From Myxococcales bacterium (GTDB lineage: Bacteria; Myxococcota_A; Polyangia; Polyangiales; Ga0077539), in contig JAAFIF010000003.1 of NCBI GenBank assembly GCA_013298625.1, forward strand, positions 1-64,000: a stretch of DNA of 64,000 bases. Reading direction: 5' to 3'. Under the pieces are notes generated by a model, which was not told where the DNA came from, made no database searches, and was given only the letters and a program-made list of their open reading frames with translations. How positions within the stretch are numbered: the first letter of the stretch is position 1; every line of letters begins with the position of its first letter. Positions 11,435 to 23,036 of this stretch are shown here, one piece after another. The translations under genes were made by a program, and so were the position numbers.

Positions 11435-12331
11435 ATGAGCCAACACCCTGATACGAAGAAGCTCGCGCCAGGGCCGTTTCGGGCGGACGGGCTCGAGCCC
11501 GGCGGCTACTACGAGATCTCTCGGGGGCACCCCGTGCAGCTCGCCCCTGCGGGCACGCGACACGGGGCGGCCAACGTGATCGGCGCGCTTCCGCTGGCGA
11601 CGGACCCGATGGTGGTCGAGATGGGCATCGACGTGGGCCACAAGCTGGCCGAGGACACCGTGCGCGCGCCGGACGTGAGCGTGGGCGGCGTCCCCGCAGA
11701 TCGTCCAGGCTGGGCGAAGGGCGCCCCACCGCTCGCCGTCGAGTACGCCGACGAAGGAACCAAAGAAGCCGATCTGCAGACGAAGATCGAAGAGTACTTC
11801 GGCGCTGGATCGAAGTTCGTCTGGGTCGTTCGCCTCGTCGGTCCGCGCCGCGTCGAAGTGTACTCGTCTCCCGACGCCATGACGGTGCACACGGGCGAGT
11901 CCAACCTCGAAGCGCCAGGAATTCTGCAGGAGAAAATGCCCGCCGCCGCCCTGTGGGACCGCCGCGTCGCGCTCGACGTCAGCATGCGCAACCTCCTGCT
12001 CCGCGCGGGCTACAAAGACATCGATCAGGTGCGCGAAGAGGGCCGCGAAGAAGGCCGTGAAGAAGGCCGTGAAGAAGGCCGTGAAGAAGGCCGTGAAGAA
12101 GGCCGTGAAGAAGGCCGCGAAGAAGGCCGCGAAGAAGGCCGTGAAGAGGGCCGTGAAGAGGGCCGCAGCGCGATGTTGCTCGAGCTCTTCGAGGCGAAGC
12201 TCGGTCGCGCGCTGAGCGAGGCCGAGCGCGATCACGTGCGCCGCGCGGTGAAGGGCGGGCGAGCGAGCGCGTTGACCGAGCTCGTGCTGGGCGACGCTGC
12301 GACGATCGCCGCGCGCTTGAGCGAGCGCTGA
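11435..12331 (+). CDS. Uma2/DUF820 family endonuclease-like protein with REEG repeats
   Basis: The 298-residue protein has an N-terminal Uma2 (DUF820) domain, a PD-(D/E)XK-type fold. ADGLEPGGYYEISRGHPVQL is followed by DTVRAPDVSVGG (about residue 86), PLAVEYADE (about 104) and TKIEEYFGAGSKFVWVV. The D...E-x-A/K arrangement there fits the family active site, although K is not obvious. Residues 200-243 are eleven exact copies of REEG encoded by a 12-bp tandem repeat. A conserved tail with LLELFEAKLGRALSEAE follows. Such families are mobile-like paralogues in large genomes and their substrates are unknown. ATG 11435 is 24 bp after the preceding stop. A single gene. Confidence 0.8.
   Translation: MSQHPDTKKLAPGPFRADGLEPGGYYEISRGHPVQLAPAGTRHGAANVIGALPLATDPMVVEMGIDVGHKLAEDTVRAPDVSVGGVPADRPGWAKGAPPLAVEYADEGTKEADLQTKIEEYFGAGSKFVWVVRLVGPRRVEVYSSPDAMTVHTGESNLEAPGILQEKMPAAALWDRRVALDVSMRNLLLRAGYKDIDQVREEGREEGREEGREEGREEGREEGREEGREEGREEGREEGREEGRSAMLLELFEAKLGRALSEAERDHVRRAVKGGRASALTELVLGDAATIAARLSER
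12032..12163 (+). repeat. In-frame 12-bp tandem repeat, 11 copies (REEG)
   Basis: The unit CGNGAAGARGGC repeats eleven times without interruption. Variation is only at third positions (cgc/cgt, gaa/gag), so the peptide repeat is exact. The encoded REEG run should form a charged, probably helical spacer between the nuclease-like domain and the C-terminal tail. Copy number could change by slippage in steps of four residues without shifting frame. Confidence 0.95.
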
Positions 12332-13973: not shown

Positions 13974-14525
13974 TCAGCGGGGGAGCTTCGCGTCGAAGAA
14001 CGCGCGCATCTTGATCAGGTTCTTCGGCTCGCGCGAGAACGACGGCGCCGTGTAGCTCTTGGCGAACCCGCGCACGTCCGCGATGAACTCAGCGAGCACC
14101 GCGGGGTTGTTGACGATGTCGTCCACCGAGCGGCCGCGGGCCGCGCCGCGGCGCAGGCCGACGACGTAGCCCTCGAGGCGCTTGTAGTCGTCGCCCAAGA
14201 ACTCGCGCACCAGCTCGACCTCGTTGATGAGCCGAAGCGCGATGGTGAGCTTGCCCGCCTCGACGCCGTCGATGCCCTCTTTGTTCGCGAGGTCCGCGGC
14301 GACGCGCAGCACAAACGCGTCGTCGAGGTAGCCGATGTCGTCGATCCCGTCGGGGATCAAATCGAGAGACTTGAACAGGTAGTTCAGCCCTCCGACCAGC
14401 GTCCTTCGCGCGGTCTCGGGAATCTTCGGGTCCGAGATGAGATCTACGAGTCCCTCGCCGTCATCGCCGAGAGTTCGCAGCCAGGTCGGAAACACATCGA
14501 GGCACTTTGCGTCCACGTCGCTCAT
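13974..14525 (-). CDS. YkvA/DUF1232 family protein
   Basis: The 183-residue protein contains the DUF1232 (YkvA) signature in its first half. GGLNYLFKSLDLIPDGIDDIGYLDDAFVLRVA matches the family pattern Y...DLIPDx-IP-x-GxxDD. In family members this short hydrophobic segment is usually membrane-associated. The second half (residues 95-183) is helical and charged, with no recognised domain. It is divergent from the Clp-like gene, with 107 bp between start codons. Its function is unknown. Confidence 0.8.
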   Translation of the reverse strand: MSDVDAKCLDVFPTWLRTLGDDGEGLVDLISDPKIPETARRTLVGGLNYLFKSLDLIPDGIDDIGYLDDAFVLRVAADLANKEGIDGVEAGKLTIALRLINEVELVREFLGDDYKRLEGYVVGLRRGAARGRSVDDIVNNPAVLAEFIADVRGFAKSYTAPSFSREPKNLIKMRAFFDAKLPR

Positions 14526-14632: not shown

Positions 14633-17600
14633 ATGCGGTTTTCGTATCGATGCCTGGTCGCCAAGCGCGCCGGGGGAGCGTGCGTCGTGCACCCCCTCGC
14701 GATCGAAGGGTGGGCTGTGGCCGCCGCCAGCGCCGAGCGGGCCATCGACGAGCTCTCGCTCGCCGTTGATGACGCGATCTCCCGCGCGCACCCTCGCCGC
14801 GTCGCCTCGTGGGCCCGCGCCACCACGGGCAACCTCGTCGAGCTCGAGCTCCCGGTGCTCCCGGTGTGGGGCGCCAAAGAGACCGAGCGCCGCCCGCTCT
14901 CGTTGTCGGTCGTGCTCGCGCCCGCGCATCGGCCGTACGTCGAGGCGTTTGCGCCGCGGCTCGGCGTGCGCTTCTGGCTCGAAGGCGGCGAAGACGTGTT
15001 CGAGCGCGCCGCGACCCTGTTCGAAGCGCACCTGAAATCCCTGCCCGAACACGCGCTGCTCGACCTTCGCAAGACCGGCTCCGAAGAGCTTCACGCGTTC
15101 GAGGTCGCCCCGTCCATCGCGCCGCTCTCGTCGCTGCGACACCACGAGCTGTCCCTCGATGAACGACCGTTCAGCGCCAGCAGCGCGCCGGACGACAGCG
15201 ACCCAGAGCTCGAAGACAACGACGACGACGAAGACGCGCGCGCCTCGGCCAGCGCCCGCGATCGCGCGATCGCGCAGGCGTACGACCTGGACGCGGGGTT
15301 TCGTCCCGAGCGCGGCCCGCAGCACAGTGACGGGCGCGCGCTGCGCCGCAAGAGCCGCACCCTTCGCCGCGTCGGTGATCCGTGGCACCAGTTCGCCGCT
15401 GAAGAGCGCCTCGATCGCGCATTCGGTCGCGACGCCATCGTCGACGCGATCCTCGCGCGTCTGCGCGAGCCGCACCCAGACCCGCTGGTGCTCATCGGCC
15501 TCTCGGGCGTGGGAAAGTCCGCGATCCTCGCGGAGGTGGCCGCGCGGCTGCAGGGCGAAGAGCCCCTCGCCATCGCGGGCAGGAGGCTCTTCTTCGCGCT
15601 CGACGGCTCGCGGTTGATCTCTGGCGAAGGCTCCTTTGGCGAGTGGCAGCAGCAGACGCTGGAGGTGCTGCGCGAGGCCAGCGCGACCGGCGCAGTCTTG
15701 CACCTCGGCGCGGTGCTCGACCTGCTCGACGCCGGGCGCAGCGCAGAGCGAGACGACAACGTCGCGCAGCTGCTCGTCTCGGCGTTGGCCGCGCGAGAGG
15801 TGTGCGCGGTCGGCGAGGCGACGCCCGAGGCGTGGGCCGAGCTCGAGCGGCGCAACCCCTCGTTCGCCAGGGTGTTTGCGGTCATTCGCGTGGACGAGCC
15901 GTCGGCCGAGCAGCTGCGCGCGATCGCCCTGCGCGTGGCTCAGTCGCTCGAGCGCAAGCACTCAGTGGTGATCCCCGCGGACGCGGTGGACGCGTGCATC
16001 GGGCTGGCGAAGCGGTTTTGGCCCTACGGCGCGACGCTGGGGCAAGCGCTCTCGTTCTTGCGGCGCGCGGCGCAGTCGCGGCAGTCGATGCACGCGCCGT
16101 CGTTGTCGGTCTCGGCCGTGGTCGACCGATTCGCGAGCGAGAGCGGGATCCCGCCGGTGTTGTTGCGAGACGACGTCGCGCTCGACCCGGCGACGGTGCG
16201 CGCTGCGCTCAAAGCCCGGGTCGTCGGGCAAGACCACGCCGTCGAGCGCGTCGTCGAGGTCGTCAGCGTGCTCAAAGCGGGCCTGCAAGACAGCAAGAAG
16301 CCCGCGGCCGTCCTCTTCTTCGCCGGCCCCACGGGCGTCGGAAAGACCGAGCTCTCTCGGGCCCTCGCCCAGTTCGTCTTCGGCTCGGACGAGCGCCTCG
16401 TGCGCGTGGACATGGGCGAGCACGCCGGCCCCGACGCGGTCGCGCGGCTCGTGGGAGACGGCCAGAGCGCAGGCGCGCTCACGGGGGCGGTGCGCAGGCA
16501 GCCCTTCAGCGTCGTTTTGCTCGACGAGATCGAGAAGGCGCACCCCGCGGTGTTCGACGTCCTGCTCGGCGTCCTCGGCGAGGGGCGCCTCACCGACGCG
16601 CGGGGAAAGTTCACGGACTTTCGCAACTGCGTCCTGGTCATGACCTCGAACCTCGGCGCCGACACGCTGCGCGCCCGCGTCGGCTTCGAGGTCGCCGACC
16701 GCGACCGCGCCGAGCGCGCCGTGCGACAGCACTACTTGTCCGAAGCGCAGTCGTTCTTTCGCCCAGAGCTGTTCAACCGCGTCGACGATTTCGTGGTGTT
16801 CGACCCGCTCTCGCCCGAGGCGCTTCGCTCGGTGGTCCTGCGCGAGCTGAAGAAGCTCTCGCAGCGCGAAGGCCTCCGCAGGGCCAACGTCGCGCTCGTC
16901 CCCACGGGCGCCGCGGTGGACGCGATCGTGCGCGAGGGCGTCGACCCGCGGTACGGAGCGCGCCCGCTCAAGCGCGCGATCGAGCGCCTCGTGACCGCGC
17001 CGCTCGCGGCTTTTCTCGCGCAGAACGCCGGGACCAACGGGCAGCGCGCGTCGCGGGTCGAGGTCGACGCACACAAAATCAAGGGCGTTGTGTTTCGCTT
17101 GTCCTCGCAGAGCGCCGAGGACTCCGCCAACCTCGCCCGCGTCGCCGAGGTCCTCTCGCTCGCCGGAGAGCTGCGCGCGATGGCCCAGCGCTGGAGCCGC
17201 AGCGCCCTGTGCGACGCCCTGCGCGCGGAGCTTCGCTCGTTCGACAGCGCCTCGAAGCTCGAGGGCTTCTGGAGCGACCGCGCGATGGCCGAGCGCGCCG
17301 CCCGCCGCGCCGCCGCCGCCAAGGGATTGGTCTCGCTCGTCGATCACGCGGTCGAGCAGGCGATCGCCAGCGAAGACCTCGCGTTCGAGGCCTACTACGA
17401 CCGCAGCGCCGAGGCGGCCAACGCCCTGGTCGACGAGTTCGCAGACCTGCGCGAGCACCTGCTGCGCGCGCGCAGAGCGCTGTTTCTCGCGACCTTCGAG
17501 GCCCCCAGCGCGCACCCGCTCAGCGTCCTCTACCTCAGCGCCTCGCGCGCCGCGTGGAAGTGGGTCGAGTGGCTGCGCAGCGCGTACCTCGCGTACGCGA

Positions 17601-18139
17601 GAGAGCAGGGGCTCGCCGCCACCGTGTACTCGCCGGGCGAAGGCGTTAGCGACCCGGGCGAAGCGAAGGCGCGGGGCAGGGCGTCCGTCGTTCCGCCAGC
17701 AAAAGGACCGGCGAAATCGCGTCCGCCCGCCGTGAGCTGGCCCTGGCGCGAGTCGACCGAGCCGCCGGCCGAAGGCGCTCCCATGCTGTGCGCCATCGTG
17801 TTTCGCGGCGAGATGGCCAGGGTCTTCTCCGTCGAGCAGGGCGCGCACCGCGTGCTCGGCGACGGAGCCACGTACGTGATCAAAGCGCTCTTCGACAGCG
17901 CCACGCACGCCCAGCCCCTGCGCCGCGCGGCGGACGTCGAGAAGCTCTTGCGCGACGACGAGGTCCGTCGCGTCCACGCCTCGCGCCGAGTGCTCAAAGA
18001 CGTGCGCACCGGCGTCGAGTGCGCCTGGGGCGAAGAGACCAGCGCCGTCGTCGAGCTCGCGCCCGTGTACGAAGCGTGGATCAACGCCCGCGTGCTCTCG
18101 GCGACGCCCACGCTGTCGAAGGACCTCGGCGGCGAGTGA
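14633..18139 (+). CDS. Clp/Hsp100 AAA+ ATPase fused to a release-factor-like domain lacking GGQ
   Basis: The 1168-residue protein has four parts. Residues 1-170 are an unrecognised N-domain, then an acidic linker. D1 (about 250-480) has Walker A GLSGVGKS (K295). Where Walker B should read DE it has G359-A360, so D1 probably binds but does not hydrolyse ATP. D2 (about 510-800) keeps Walker A GPTGVGKT (K571), Walker B VVLLDEIEKAHP and the FRPELFNR arginine finger. A VGF at 683-685 sits where ClpC has its ClpP-docking loop. The pore-loop tyrosine of GYVG is missing (RLVG, 605-608). Residues 860-1168 resemble class I release factors (FW at 879-880, EQGAHRV near 1070, HASR...RTGVEC) but have no GGQ. 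ATG 14633 is preferred over TTG 14621. I infer ribosome-linked unfolding or remodelling. Confidence 0.8.
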   Translation: MRFSYRCLVAKRAGGACVVHPLAIEGWAVAAASAERAIDELSLAVDDAISRAHPRRVASWARATTGNLVELELPVLPVWGAKETERRPLSLSVVLAPAHRPYVEAFAPRLGVRFWLEGGEDVFERAATLFEAHLKSLPEHALLDLRKTGSEELHAFEVAPSIAPLSSLRHHELSLDERPFSASSAPDDSDPELEDNDDDEDARASASARDRAIAQAYDLDAGFRPERGPQHSDGRALRRKSRTLRRVGDPWHQFAAEERLDRAFGRDAIVDAILARLREPHPDPLVLIGLSGVGKSAILAEVAARLQGEEPLAIAGRRLFFALDGSRLISGEGSFGEWQQQTLEVLREASATGAVLHLGAVLDLLDAGRSAERDDNVAQLLVSALAAREVCAVGEATPEAWAELERRNPSFARVFAVIRVDEPSAEQLRAIALRVAQSLERKHSVVIPADAVDACIGLAKRFWPYGATLGQALSFLRRAAQSRQSMHAPSLSVSAVVDRFASESGIPPVLLRDDVALDPATVRAALKARVVGQDHAVERVVEVVSVLKAGLQDSKKPAAVLFFAGPTGVGKTELSRALAQFVFGSDERLVRVDMGEHAGPDAVARLVGDGQSAGALTGAVRRQPFSVVLLDEIEKAHPAVFDVLLGVLGEGRLTDARGKFTDFRNCVLVMTSNLGADTLRARVGFEVADRDRAERAVRQHYLSEAQSFFRPELFNRVDDFVVFDPLSPEALRSVVLRELKKLSQREGLRRANVALVPTGAAVDAIVREGVDPRYGARPLKRAIERLVTAPLAAFLAQNAGTNGQRASRVEVDAHKIKGVVFRLSSQSAEDSANLARVAEVLSLAGELRAMAQRWSRSALCDALRAELRSFDSASKLEGFWSDRAMAERAARRAAAAKGLVSLVDHAVEQAIASEDLAFEAYYDRSAEAANALVDEFADLREHLLRARRALFLATFEAPSAHPLSVLYLSASRAAWKWVEWLRSAYLAYAREQGLAATVYSPGEGVSDPGEAKARGRASVVPPAKGPAKSRPPAVSWPWRESTEPPAEGAPMLCAIVFRGEMARVFSVEQGAHRVLGDGATYVIKALFDSATHAQPLRRAADVEKLLRDDEVRRVHASRRVLKDVRTGVECAWGEETSAVVELAPVYEAWINARVLSATPTLSKDLGGE

Positions 18140-19833: not shown

Positions 19834-22764
19834 TCAGCGCGGGTAGTTCCAGAGCACCTGGCCGACGCCGACGGCGCCGCGGTCGACGACGAGGTGCTGA
19901 TAGGCGCCCTCGCCTTGCTCGACGCTCTGTCCGTGCTGCGCGAACTGGCGCCACACGTAGTGGGTGAGCTCGCCGACGGTGAGCGCGTTGTCACGCGGGT
20001 CGTTGTCGGCTTCGCCGCCCATTCCGAGGCGCAAGAAGTGAGAGAGGTAGCCGCCTGCGCGGAAGTTCTGCGCGACCGAGCTCGTCACGTCTTCTTCGCT
20101 CGAGAAGAGCCCGATGCGGCCCGGACGAGTGATCACGTCCTTGGCAAAGCCTCCGGCGTAGCAAGAGTCCAGGGCGAGGATGCTGGTGCGAGCGCGGACC
20201 CCGTCGAAGAGCGTCCCCATCTCGTCGTCCATGAGCTGTCCGTCGTAGACATAGAGGTACTCGTCCATGCCGTCGAGCTCGCGCTGATCCGAGGAGCCGC
20301 CGCGGGTGCGCCCGCCGTGGCCCGAGTAGAAGAAGATGAACACGTCCTGCGGACCCGCCTGCGCGCCGATGCGCTGAATCGCCTCGCGGATGTTCTGCCG
20401 CGTGGCCTGTCCGTCCGTGAGCAGCACGCGGCGGTCCTGGGTCATCAGGCCGCGATCGGTGAGGGCTTCGACCATCTTGACCGCGTCGTTGGCGCACTCC
20501 GCGAGGTCGTTGGTGCCCGAGGGATAGTCCGTGATGCCCGCGAACACGCCCCACACGCGCGGCCCGCCAGCGACGTTGGGCACAGGCGTGGGGTTGGGGT
20601 TGTTTGGGTTGGGGTTGTTGGGGGTGTTGCCGGGGTTGTCGATGGGCAGCGTGCCTGCGGCGCCGCTCTCGACGCGCAGGGTGTACGGGCCGGTCTCGGC
20701 GGCGCGATAGCTGGTGACCATCACCTGGTAGTTGCCCGCTTCGGCCGAGGGAATGTCCACGCCCGAGTTGGTGTTGCCCGACACGAGGTCGTCGTTGTCG
20801 TGCTGCCTTCCGCTCGGCGAGCGCACGATGAGGTACGTGTCGAACGACGAGCTCTCGAGGCGCAAGCGCACGGCCTCGCCGGGCCTGAACTGCAGCGTGT
20901 GCTGGTCGACGAACTCGCCGGCTTGCAGGGTGCGGTCGCCGCGCGCGAGCGTTCCGGTCACTTCGCGGGCGCGAGCGTTGCCGGGCTGCACGGGGTTGGG
21001 CTGCGGCTGTGGCTGCACGCCAGGGACGGGCTGCGGCTGCACGCCAGGGACGGGCTGCGGCTGCGCGCCGCCACCGCCCGGAGCGCGGACGCTGAGCTGA
21101 TACGCGCCGGTTTCTCCGGTGCGGTACGACGACACGGTGACCGTGTACTGACCGGCCTCGGTGGTGACGAGGTCGAGCGCCGAGTTGGTCGTCCCTTGGA
21201 TCCCGTCGTCGTTCTGCTGCTGCGCGCCCGAGGGCGAGCGCACGATCAAGAACGTGTCGAAGTCGCTCGACGTCGTCTCGAGTCGAACGGCCGCGCCCGC
21301 GGGCCAGTTGAACGTGAAATTGTCTGCAAATTCACCGCTCGAACGAGTCCCGTCGCCCTGCGCGAGCGAGCCCGCGACGGTCTGCGCTCCCACGTTGCCC
21401 GGCTGCGCGGGCGTCGGCTGCGGCTGTCCAGGCGCGGGCTGCGCGGCCCCTGCGCCGCCACCGCCGCCGATGTTGAGCGTGTACGCGCCGGTCTCGCCGG
21501 GGCGATAGCTGGTGATCATCACCGTGTGCTGGCCGGCCTCGCGCACGGTGTAGTCGAGCTGCGAGTTGCGGTCGCTCGGGCTGAAGTCGTCGTTGTCTTG
21601 CTGCGAGCCAGAGGGTGCGCGCACGATGAGATACGGGTCGAACTGCGGCGACTCGAGGCGCAGACGGATCTGCGCGCCGACCGGCCAGTTGAAGGTCAAT
21701 CGATCGACGAACTCGCCCGAGTTCAAGCGCTGATCGCCCTGCGCGAGCGTGCCCTGACGGCTCGCCGCGGCGACCTGCGTGTTGCCTCCGGGCTGCGGCT
21801 GCGGCTGCCCCGGAAACCACTCTTGCACGTTGGTCTGTCGCGCCGCGGGGTTGAACTTGAGCTCGTAGCTGCCGGCCACGCCGGCGCGCGTCGCGGAGGC
21901 GATGACTTTGTACTCGCCGGTCTCTGCGAGCACGAGCGAGAGCTGCGAGTTGGTCGTGCCGCCAGAGTCGTCATCGGCGAAGACCGCGCCCGAGGGCGCA
22001 ACGACGATCAGGTACGGGTCGATCGCCGTTGAGTTGAGCGCGAGCGAGACGGTGTCTCCCTGCGTTCCGTTGAACGAGTAGACGTCCGATGCTTCGCCGC
22101 TCGGCAGCGTGGGGTCGTTGGCCGCGAGCGTGCCTTGCACTTCTTGCCCCGGCCGCAGCGACGCGGTCGCCGTCAGCGTCGGCGGCAAGCGATGGTGCGT
22201 GCGCGCCTCCGAGGGCTGGATGTACTCGAGAAACGGCGTGCTCTGCGAGCCCATCTGCTGATAGGCGTTCTGCACGTTCGTGGGCATCGCGAGGGCGTTG
22301 GTGTTCTGCGCGACCTGCGCCGCCTGTCGCTCGGCGCGCACGTGAAACGCGCCTCCAGTGCCCGGGCGATACGGCCGCACGCGGACCTTCAACGTCCCCG
22401 CGGCGCGCGCGGACACCGTGAGCTGCGAGCGCTGACGCGAGCCCTGGTAGTCGTCGTTCATCAACGACGTCCCGTCGGGAAGGACCACCTCGAGCACCGG
22501 GTCGAACGCCGGTGATTCGACGGACACCACGAGGCGCTCGCCCGCGGCGACGCGCACTTCGTAGTGCGCGAGGGCGCTCGCGCCGGGCGCGCTGGGGACG
22601 ATCTGCGCCTGCTGGTCGAGCAGCGTGTTGGGGTTCTGCTGCGCCTGCGGCGGCTGTGCGTTGGTGTTGTTTCGATTGCCACTAGAGCGACGGCAAGCGC
22701 CCGCGCTGGCGACCGCAGTGAGCGCCGCGAGCAACACGAGCGAACGAGGCAGCGGAGTCTTCAT
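19834..22764 (-). CDS. Caspase-fold (peptidase C14) lipoprotein with five PPC-like domains
   Basis: The 976-residue protein starts at ATG 22764 with a lipoprotein signal (lipobox SAGAC near residue 24) and an Asn/Gln-rich linker. Five beta-sandwich repeats of about 110 residues resemble bacterial pre-peptidase C-terminal (PPC) domains. Each has FD(P/T)YLIVRSPSG, a following NDD, and an EAG-x-Y-x-V-x-V-x-SYR-x-GETGAY end. The last 250 residues are a C14 caspase-like domain. FIFFYSGHGG contains the catalytic histidine (H816) and ILALDSCYAGGF the cysteine (C868), with VWGVFAGITDY as the first strand. Bacterial caspase homologues prefer basic or acidic P1 residues depending on subtype, which I cannot assign. 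It is presumably periplasm- or surface-facing. A single gene, with its promoter in the 272 bp upstream. Confidence 0.9.
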   Translation of the reverse strand: MKTPLPRSLVLLAALTAVASAGACRRSSGNRNNTNAQPPQAQQNPNTLLDQQAQIVPSAPGASALAHYEVRVAAGERLVVSVESPAFDPVLEVVLPDGTSLMNDDYQGSRQRSQLTVSARAAGTLKVRVRPYRPGTGGAFHVRAERQAAQVAQNTNALAMPTNVQNAYQQMGSQSTPFLEYIQPSEARTHHRLPPTLTATASLRPGQEVQGTLAANDPTLPSGEASDVYSFNGTQGDTVSLALNSTAIDPYLIVVAPSGAVFADDDSGGTTNSQLSLVLAETGEYKVIASATRAGVAGSYELKFNPAARQTNVQEWFPGQPQPQPGGNTQVAAASRQGTLAQGDQRLNSGEFVDRLTFNWPVGAQIRLRLESPQFDPYLIVRAPSGSQQDNDDFSPSDRNSQLDYTVREAGQHTVMITSYRPGETGAYTLNIGGGGGAGAAQPAPGQPQPTPAQPGNVGAQTVAGSLAQGDGTRSSGEFADNFTFNWPAGAAVRLETTSSDFDTFLIVRSPSGAQQQNDDGIQGTTNSALDLVTTEAGQYTVTVSSYRTGETGAYQLSVRAPGGGGAQPQPVPGVQPQPVPGVQPQPQPNPVQPGNARAREVTGTLARGDRTLQAGEFVDQHTLQFRPGEAVRLRLESSSFDTYLIVRSPSGRQHDNDDLVSGNTNSGVDIPSAEAGNYQVMVTSYRAAETGPYTLRVESGAAGTLPIDNPGNTPNNPNPNNPNPTPVPNVAGGPRVWGVFAGITDYPSGTNDLAECANDAVKMVEALTDRGLMTQDRRVLLTDGQATRQNIREAIQRIGAQAGPQDVFIFFYSGHGGRTRGGSSDQRELDGMDEYLYVYDGQLMDDEMGTLFDGVRARTSILALDSCYAGGFAKDVITRPGRIGLFSSEEDVTSSVAQNFRAGGYLSHFLRLGMGGEADNDPRDNALTVGELTHYVWRQFAQHGQSVEQGEGAYQHLVVDRGAVGVGQVLWNYPR

Positions 22765-22940
22765 CCTGTGCTTCAACCCTTTCTCCCTCAGCGCTCGAGC
22801 GCTCGCGACGCGAGCCTCGCGCTGTTGTGTCTCAACTGAGCCGAGAGGGAGGTCACGGCGCAACGAGTGTACGGGATTCGAAGGTGGTGATGTTCCCAGC
22901 TTTCCGCGATCTGACAGCGCTGCGGTGGTGTGCGTGAGGT

Positions 22941-22960
22941 GTGTGAAGCTGCGGTCACAC
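22941..22960. promoter_or_regulatory. Inverted repeat between divergent genes (operator candidate)
   Basis: GTGTGA and TCACAC are separated by eight bases in the 272-bp region between the caspase-like gene and the protein-RNA operon. The half-sites resemble CRP-type sites, but those need six bases between them, so I do not assign a regulator. The rest of this 272-bp region shows no clear structure. Confidence 0.3.
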
Positions 22961-23036
22961 TCGCTACGCAAAGTTGCTCGTCACGGGGATTGACCGACGC
23001 CGTTGAGCGCCGCATCCGTGCGGCCCCAAAGAACCC

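Follow-up and report, generated by a model that had tools for sequence, protein, structure and literature searches.

A two-ring Clp/Hsp100 ATPase of Myxococcota with a GGQ-less tail descended from release factor 2, possibly a subunit of a ribosome-docked machine

The window analyzed here, a 64,000-nucleotide stretch from a Myxococcales bacterium, carries on its forward strand a gene at 14633-18139, which we refer to as gene A. Its frame encodes 1168 aa from an ATG start without an internal stop, and the start Met is identical in relatives. Protein A combines the two rings of a Clp/Hsp100 ATPase with a C-terminal stretch of ~330 residues homologous to release factor 2 (RF2); its features are collected in Table 1. 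An earlier note had proposed a Clp/Hsp100 ATPase fused to a release factor (RF)-like module, and that proposal is borne out by matches in sequence, profile, and structure.

A DUF1232 gene (13974-14525, - strand) lies divergent from gene A, and a similar one occupies the same place in relative G007 (L045:4679-5290). Just downstream of A in G007 lies a Tubulin-like gene of the Tubulin_2/FtsZ family (L045:10713-12173, - strand), adjoining an unknown gene of 618 aa. The window also encodes a putative endonuclease of the Uma2 family in which the tetrapeptide REEG is repeated in a run (REEGREEGREEG...; 11435-12331, + strand) and a protein that joins a caspase domain (Peptidase_C14) to two or more PPC domains and linkers rich in proline and glutamine (19834-22971, - strand). 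When ORF lists were read by eye, neighbor genes other than Clp paralogues were not conserved beyond close relatives.

Table 1. Features of gene A in the window
Feature	Residues	Position	Strand	Remarks
Whole Clp-RF gene A		14633..18139	+	N-terminal domain, Clp/Hsp100 AAA+ rings D1 and D2, GGQ-less RF2-like tail
N-terminal domain	1-160	14633..15112	+	Unmatched in Pfam; homologue of that in partner B; distinct from the Clp_N repeat domain
AAA+ ring 1	~244-510	15362..16162	+	Walker A present (GLSGVGKS)
Ring-1 Walker B position	355-359	15695..15709	+	VLHLG; acidic DE pair gone in all aligned A members
AAA+ ring 2 and small domain	~515-805	16175..17047	+	Walker A, Walker B (DE), Arg finger, and sensor 2 present
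Ring-2 GYVG pore-loop site	608-614	16454..16474	+	Shortened, without aromatic residue in the window protein
VGF	683-685	16679..16687	+	Site at which ClpA/ClpC carry the loop that docks on ClpP
RF domain 1/PCRF-like helical domain	~828-952	17114..17488	+	Contains FW 879-880
RF domain 2/4, first part	963-1001	17519..17635	+	Strand-helix-strand; YLAYAREQG helix
Insert of low confidence, probably disordered	1003-1045	17639..17767	+	From AlphaFold model
RF domain 2/4, second part	1052-1155	17786..18097	+	GAHR; VRRVHASRRVLKDVRTGVE = RF2 IRSY..VKDLRTGVE
Domain-3 scar	1089-1109	17897..17959	+	~20 aa where RF2 has a GGQ domain of ~100 aa

The motor was compared with class I Clp/Hsp100 ATPases. Pfam and NCBIfam assign residues ~240 to 805 to the Clp/Hsp100 family. 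Both AAA+ modules and the D2-small domain are present (AAA_2, 132 bits; ClpB_D2-small, 54 bits), a ClpA model covers residues 238 to 792, and protein A shares with ClpA, ClpC, and ClpB the two rings and the active ring-2 motifs. It differs from them in having an RF tail, in lacking both Clp_N and a long middle domain between the rings, and in belonging to a separate clade. No family matched residues 1 to 239 even at an E value of 10; the sole match of the N-terminal domain was to that of partner B (E 3.7e-7), and a HicB-like identity suggested by eye found no backing in Pfam or PDB searches. Walker A and B are not intact in both rings: ring 2 is intact, and ring 1 lacks the DE pair in every A member. 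The aromatic GYVG-type pore loop of ring 2 is absent from the members read of A, B, C, and the single-gene group described below, while the ordinary ClpA and ClpB of the window genome retain it. Since the ring-1 Walker B pair and the ring-2 loop are both missing, subunit A is unlikely to thread substrate by standard loops, and the word unfoldase used in the earlier note is doubtful in its canonical sense. An aromatic ring-1 loop, unlike these features of A, is kept elsewhere in the family: single-gene relatives retain a Tyr (KYLG/RYLG), and the C partners read likewise, except for one with RFLG. An xGF loop is the docking loop to ClpP in ClpA, ClpX, and ClpC. A search for [LIVM]G[FL] in ring 2 found the VGF of protein A and an xGF in nearly all members, a feature shared with ClpA and ClpC, and a ClpP gene is present in the genome of the window; such a loop would be compatible with ClpP binding but does not prove it.

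The case for the tail had to be built on relatives, because a Pfam search of the window protein's tail alone gave no match. From about residue 840 onward, NCBIfam returned a single match, prfB (RF2), at an E value of 1.5e-4, covering profile positions 4 to 156, the PCRF part. Used alone as a query against 379 Myxococcota genomes, the tail retrieved other Clp-like ORFs of 1000 to 1500 aa, and after them genuine RF2 genes of 350 to 380 aa in genomes other than that of the window (E 1e-7 to 1e-4), eleven of which were confirmed as RF2 by their GGQ motif. A profile made from an alignment of 20 tails matched, among all PDB sequences, RF2 (best E 2.9e-10), RF1 marginally, and nothing else; against 11 myxococcal RF2s it gave an hhalign E value of 2.2e-14. 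On whole genomes the same profile found 21 fusions at E < 1e-67 and, below these (1e-14 and weaker), mostly ORFs of RF2 size, together with five more distant Clp fusions. Domain 1 (PCRF) is thus present by the prfB profile, by the PDB profile search, and by relatives that exceed the Pfam cut-off for PCRF.

Structure prediction agreed. The AlphaFold model of the A tail (pLDDT 84.6, pTM 0.79) was compared with the PDB by Foldseek, and the best 24 matches were all RF2 or RF1 (best E 8.5e-10). By VIA-align, it superposed on ribosome-bound RF2 (8p16) with a Z score of 17.3 over 265 residues, spanning RF2 residues 4 to 364, and the domain 2/4 superdomain was present at 2.5 Å over 137 residues when compared with RF2 domains 2 to 4 (9fy1). 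The RF fold in residues 850 to 1168, on which the earlier note had staked its claim, was therefore found both in the predicted structure and by profile search. Three of its by-eye assignments were also right: FW at 879-880 as the dipeptide of RF2, the WLRSAYLAYAREQG helix as the corresponding RF helix, and FSVEQGAHRV as the GVHRV block.

A fourth assignment was wrong, and its correction changes what the tail has lost. The last block, HASRRVLKDVRTGVECAWGEE, had been read as THxPTGI, a strand of the GGQ domain. It corresponds instead to RF2 IRSYxLxxxxxVKDLRTxxET, in the part of domain 2/4 that follows the GGQ domain; this rests on the third hmmsearch segment of the tail profile, a weak one aligning with Thermus RF2 304-337, and on the fold match reaching RF2 residue 364. 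It follows that the whole of domain 3 is missing, not just the GGQ loop. Between the strands at residues 1079-1088 and 1110-1115 there are about 20 residues, compared to about 100 in RF2. The idea of an excised GGQ loop therefore holds as to the motif, which occurs nowhere in the A tail, and fails as to the extent of the excision. Domains 1 and 2/4 are kept. The claim that the module cannot release peptides is supported by the lack of domain 3 and GGQ. The stop-codon motif, SPF or PxT, is absent as well, the loop from GxHR to the next strand being deleted in A and in the single-gene group, and the A tail is probably unable to read stop codons. With the SPF and GGQ contacts gone, much of the known ribosome interface of RF2 is lost.

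Gene A is one member of a family that the earlier note did not recognize. At most loci a second Clp gene (B), and often a third (C), comes after it in the same orientation. Among the 379 Myxococcota genomes, 20 of the 21 with A also have B, compared to 1.2 expected (p 5e-31, a value that ignores kinship). In the window genome, A stands alone at its own locus, with B and C on another contig (C211), so the co-occurrence holds though the genes are unlinked. The B of this genome (L063:4760-8224, + strand) is interrupted in ring 2 by a run of N, which makes the motifs of that ring unreadable. By sequence alone the B tail resembles RF2 weakly (hhalign E 0.01), and it matches the A tail at 3.9e-6. 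Its AlphaFold model (pLDDT 80.4) has the RF fold without domain 3, with a Foldseek E value of 1.6e-9, the top 50 matches all from the RF family, and a Z score of 14.7 to RF2. The long C of the window genome, read by eye, appears to have domain 2/4 only and to miss domain 1; short C forms stop after the small domain and have no tail. We infer that the three proteins assemble into a single complex. A scan of genome contigs with the single sequence reached two metagenome-assembled genomes of the same genus only. Plasmids gave no match, no viral contig matched, and no phage record reaches 80% coverage of the single-gene protein, the matches listed being to the Clp part only.

The single-gene form, found in the class of genome G256, consists of open frames of 917 to 1049 aa with little or no N-terminal domain, and no second Clp fusion was seen at these loci. 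One relative of this kind (L077:6480-11867, - strand) appears as an open frame of 1796 aa, the first ~850 residues of which are probably upstream noncoding sequence. In six of six, AAA_2, ClpB_D2-small, and PCRF fall on one ORF above the Pfam cut-offs, with PCRF at 29.9 to 48.2 bits against a cut-off of 24. An alignment of the single-gene tail with RF2 extends over 286 columns and takes in the domain 3 region (E 3.3e-16), and the letters at the GGQ position are degenerate (DGQ, VGQ, LGQ, MGH, IGT, EGA, and QGA). Taken in isolation, the domain 3 segment scored no better than shuffles against an RF2 domain 3 HMM, and its hhalign E value of 0.05 was equaled by 4 of 200 column shuffles. Because these isolated tests are weak, the in-register alignment of the full tail is suggestive of domain 3 remnants and not independent proof. 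Trees built from the ATPase rings group the fusions in a single clade, separate from ClpA and ClpB of the window genome (support, 99 to 100); within this clade, the single-gene form branches as the sister of A, B, and C. The simplest history would be one RF2 fusion, loss of function motifs, triplication, and loss of domain 3.

How does this compare with known systems? The tail resembles RF2 (PrfB) in the fold of domains 1 and 2/4, in the order of segments, and in the FW and GxHR signatures; it differs in the absence of the GGQ domain and SPF loop, in its fusion behind a Clp ATPase, and in its occurrence beside a normal RF2. PrfH, ArfB/ICT1, C12orf65, and MRPS35 are likewise truncated or altered relatives of bacterial-type RFs. 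However, they keep the GGQ-domain fold and have lost domain 1 and/or codon recognition, whereas the present family shows the reverse; with GGQ domain absent and domain 1 present, A is not of the PrfH or ArfB/ICT1 type. Dom34/Pelota, a dead paralogue of eRF1, is a noncatalytic RF relative used in rescue, and Vms1-Cdc48 pairs an RF relative with an AAA+ motor (PMC6514570); both belong to the archaeo-eukaryotic RF superfamily, of unrelated fold, and act as separate proteins with no Clp fusion. For contact between Clp and the RF family there is a precedent in mitochondria, where CLPX associates with the RF relative ICT1 (review, PMC9368063). A survey of release-factor families (PMC6514570) does not mention Clp, and the open papers searched describe neither a Clp/Hsp100 protein with a translation-factor module nor a GGQ-stripped descendant of RF2.

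What might such a protein do? The window genome has ordinary RF1 and RF2 genes and nearly all hosts have RF3, and hence the fusion is an addition and no replacement; a role as a substitute for RF3 was considered and set aside, as RF3 is present in these genomes. We give an even chance to the reading that the tail is a ribosome-docking adaptor for an AAA+ remodeler, with A as one subunit of a multisubunit machine. The conserved set of two or three Clp-RF motors, judged from sequence and predicted structure, probably acts at ribosomes. One can envision that the RF-like tails dock on ribosomes that are stalled or idle, on the side of the A site, and, like the catalytically dead Dom34 in eukaryotes, neither read codons nor release peptide. 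The ATP-hydrolyzing second ring of the mixed assembly would then remodel what is found there, for example by pulling out a bound factor or a polypeptide associated with the ribosome, and the xGF loop may pass the remodeled substrate to ClpP. Domain 1 is nearly as conserved between close relatives as ring 2 (83% compared to 87%), which argues for a working surface. The loss of much of RF2's ribosome interface, the divergence of the B tail, the tail-less short C, and the ring motifs lost from A weigh against docking.

A less probable idea is that the RF2-derived tail is a captured structural part, sorting or holding A, B, and C together or binding a nonribosomal client or adaptor, away from ribosomes. 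Codon-reading and catalytic elements are gone, the strong divergence of A from B and the reduced tails of C suit subunit-specific interfaces, and A and B are tightly coinherited. However, close relatives show high conservation of domain 1, and the single-gene group, at whose loci no second Clp fusion turned up, keeps the best tail (PCRF up to 48 bits), so that sorting paralogues is not the tail's sole purpose. A regulator of termination, in which an RF2 mimic would compete with RF2 or bind RF3 while the Clp motor removes or degrades RFs or RF3 under stress, seems to us improbable. Domain 1 is the RF3-facing part of RFs and is kept here. RF3 occurs in 20 of 21 genomes with A, compared to 248 of 358 without it, but this association is confounded by kinship. 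PrmC methylates the GGQ loop, and with that loop absent, PrmC binding is unlikely. As for a decaying gene or an assembly artifact without function, several degenerate ATPase motifs might suggest it, but the likelihood is very slight given an open frame of ~1100 to 1200 aa conserved in at least five families of the phylum, motif losses common to all members, and an intact ring 2. Slighter still is the chance that a coiled coil and some alpha/beta segments merely look like an RF. A helical domain alone could match unrelated helical bundles middlingly, but here all significant matches by sequence, profile, and structure are RFs, in order through separate segments, and PCRF in relatives exceeds the curated cut-off.

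Ribosome docking is our preferred reading. The fuller proposal, that RF2 was fused once to Clp in Myxococcota, was stripped of codon reading and catalysis, and triplicated into A, B, and C as a mixed, ribosome-docked AAA+ machine, is tentative, and we hold it at somewhat under an even chance; the release-factor shells would then be ribosome adaptors for an ATP-driven remodeler or a ClpP-linked protease. If the tail does dock on ribosomes, the family would be a bacterial, AAA+-powered counterpart of rescue of the Dom34 or Vms1-Cdc48 type. The Clp-RF family would also offer a natural experiment on the ribosomal role of RF domains 1 and 2/4 in the absence of catalysis. Together, the single-gene form with its better preserved tail and the A, B, and C proteins from which domain 3 has gone may represent stages in the passage from a core translation factor to an adaptor.
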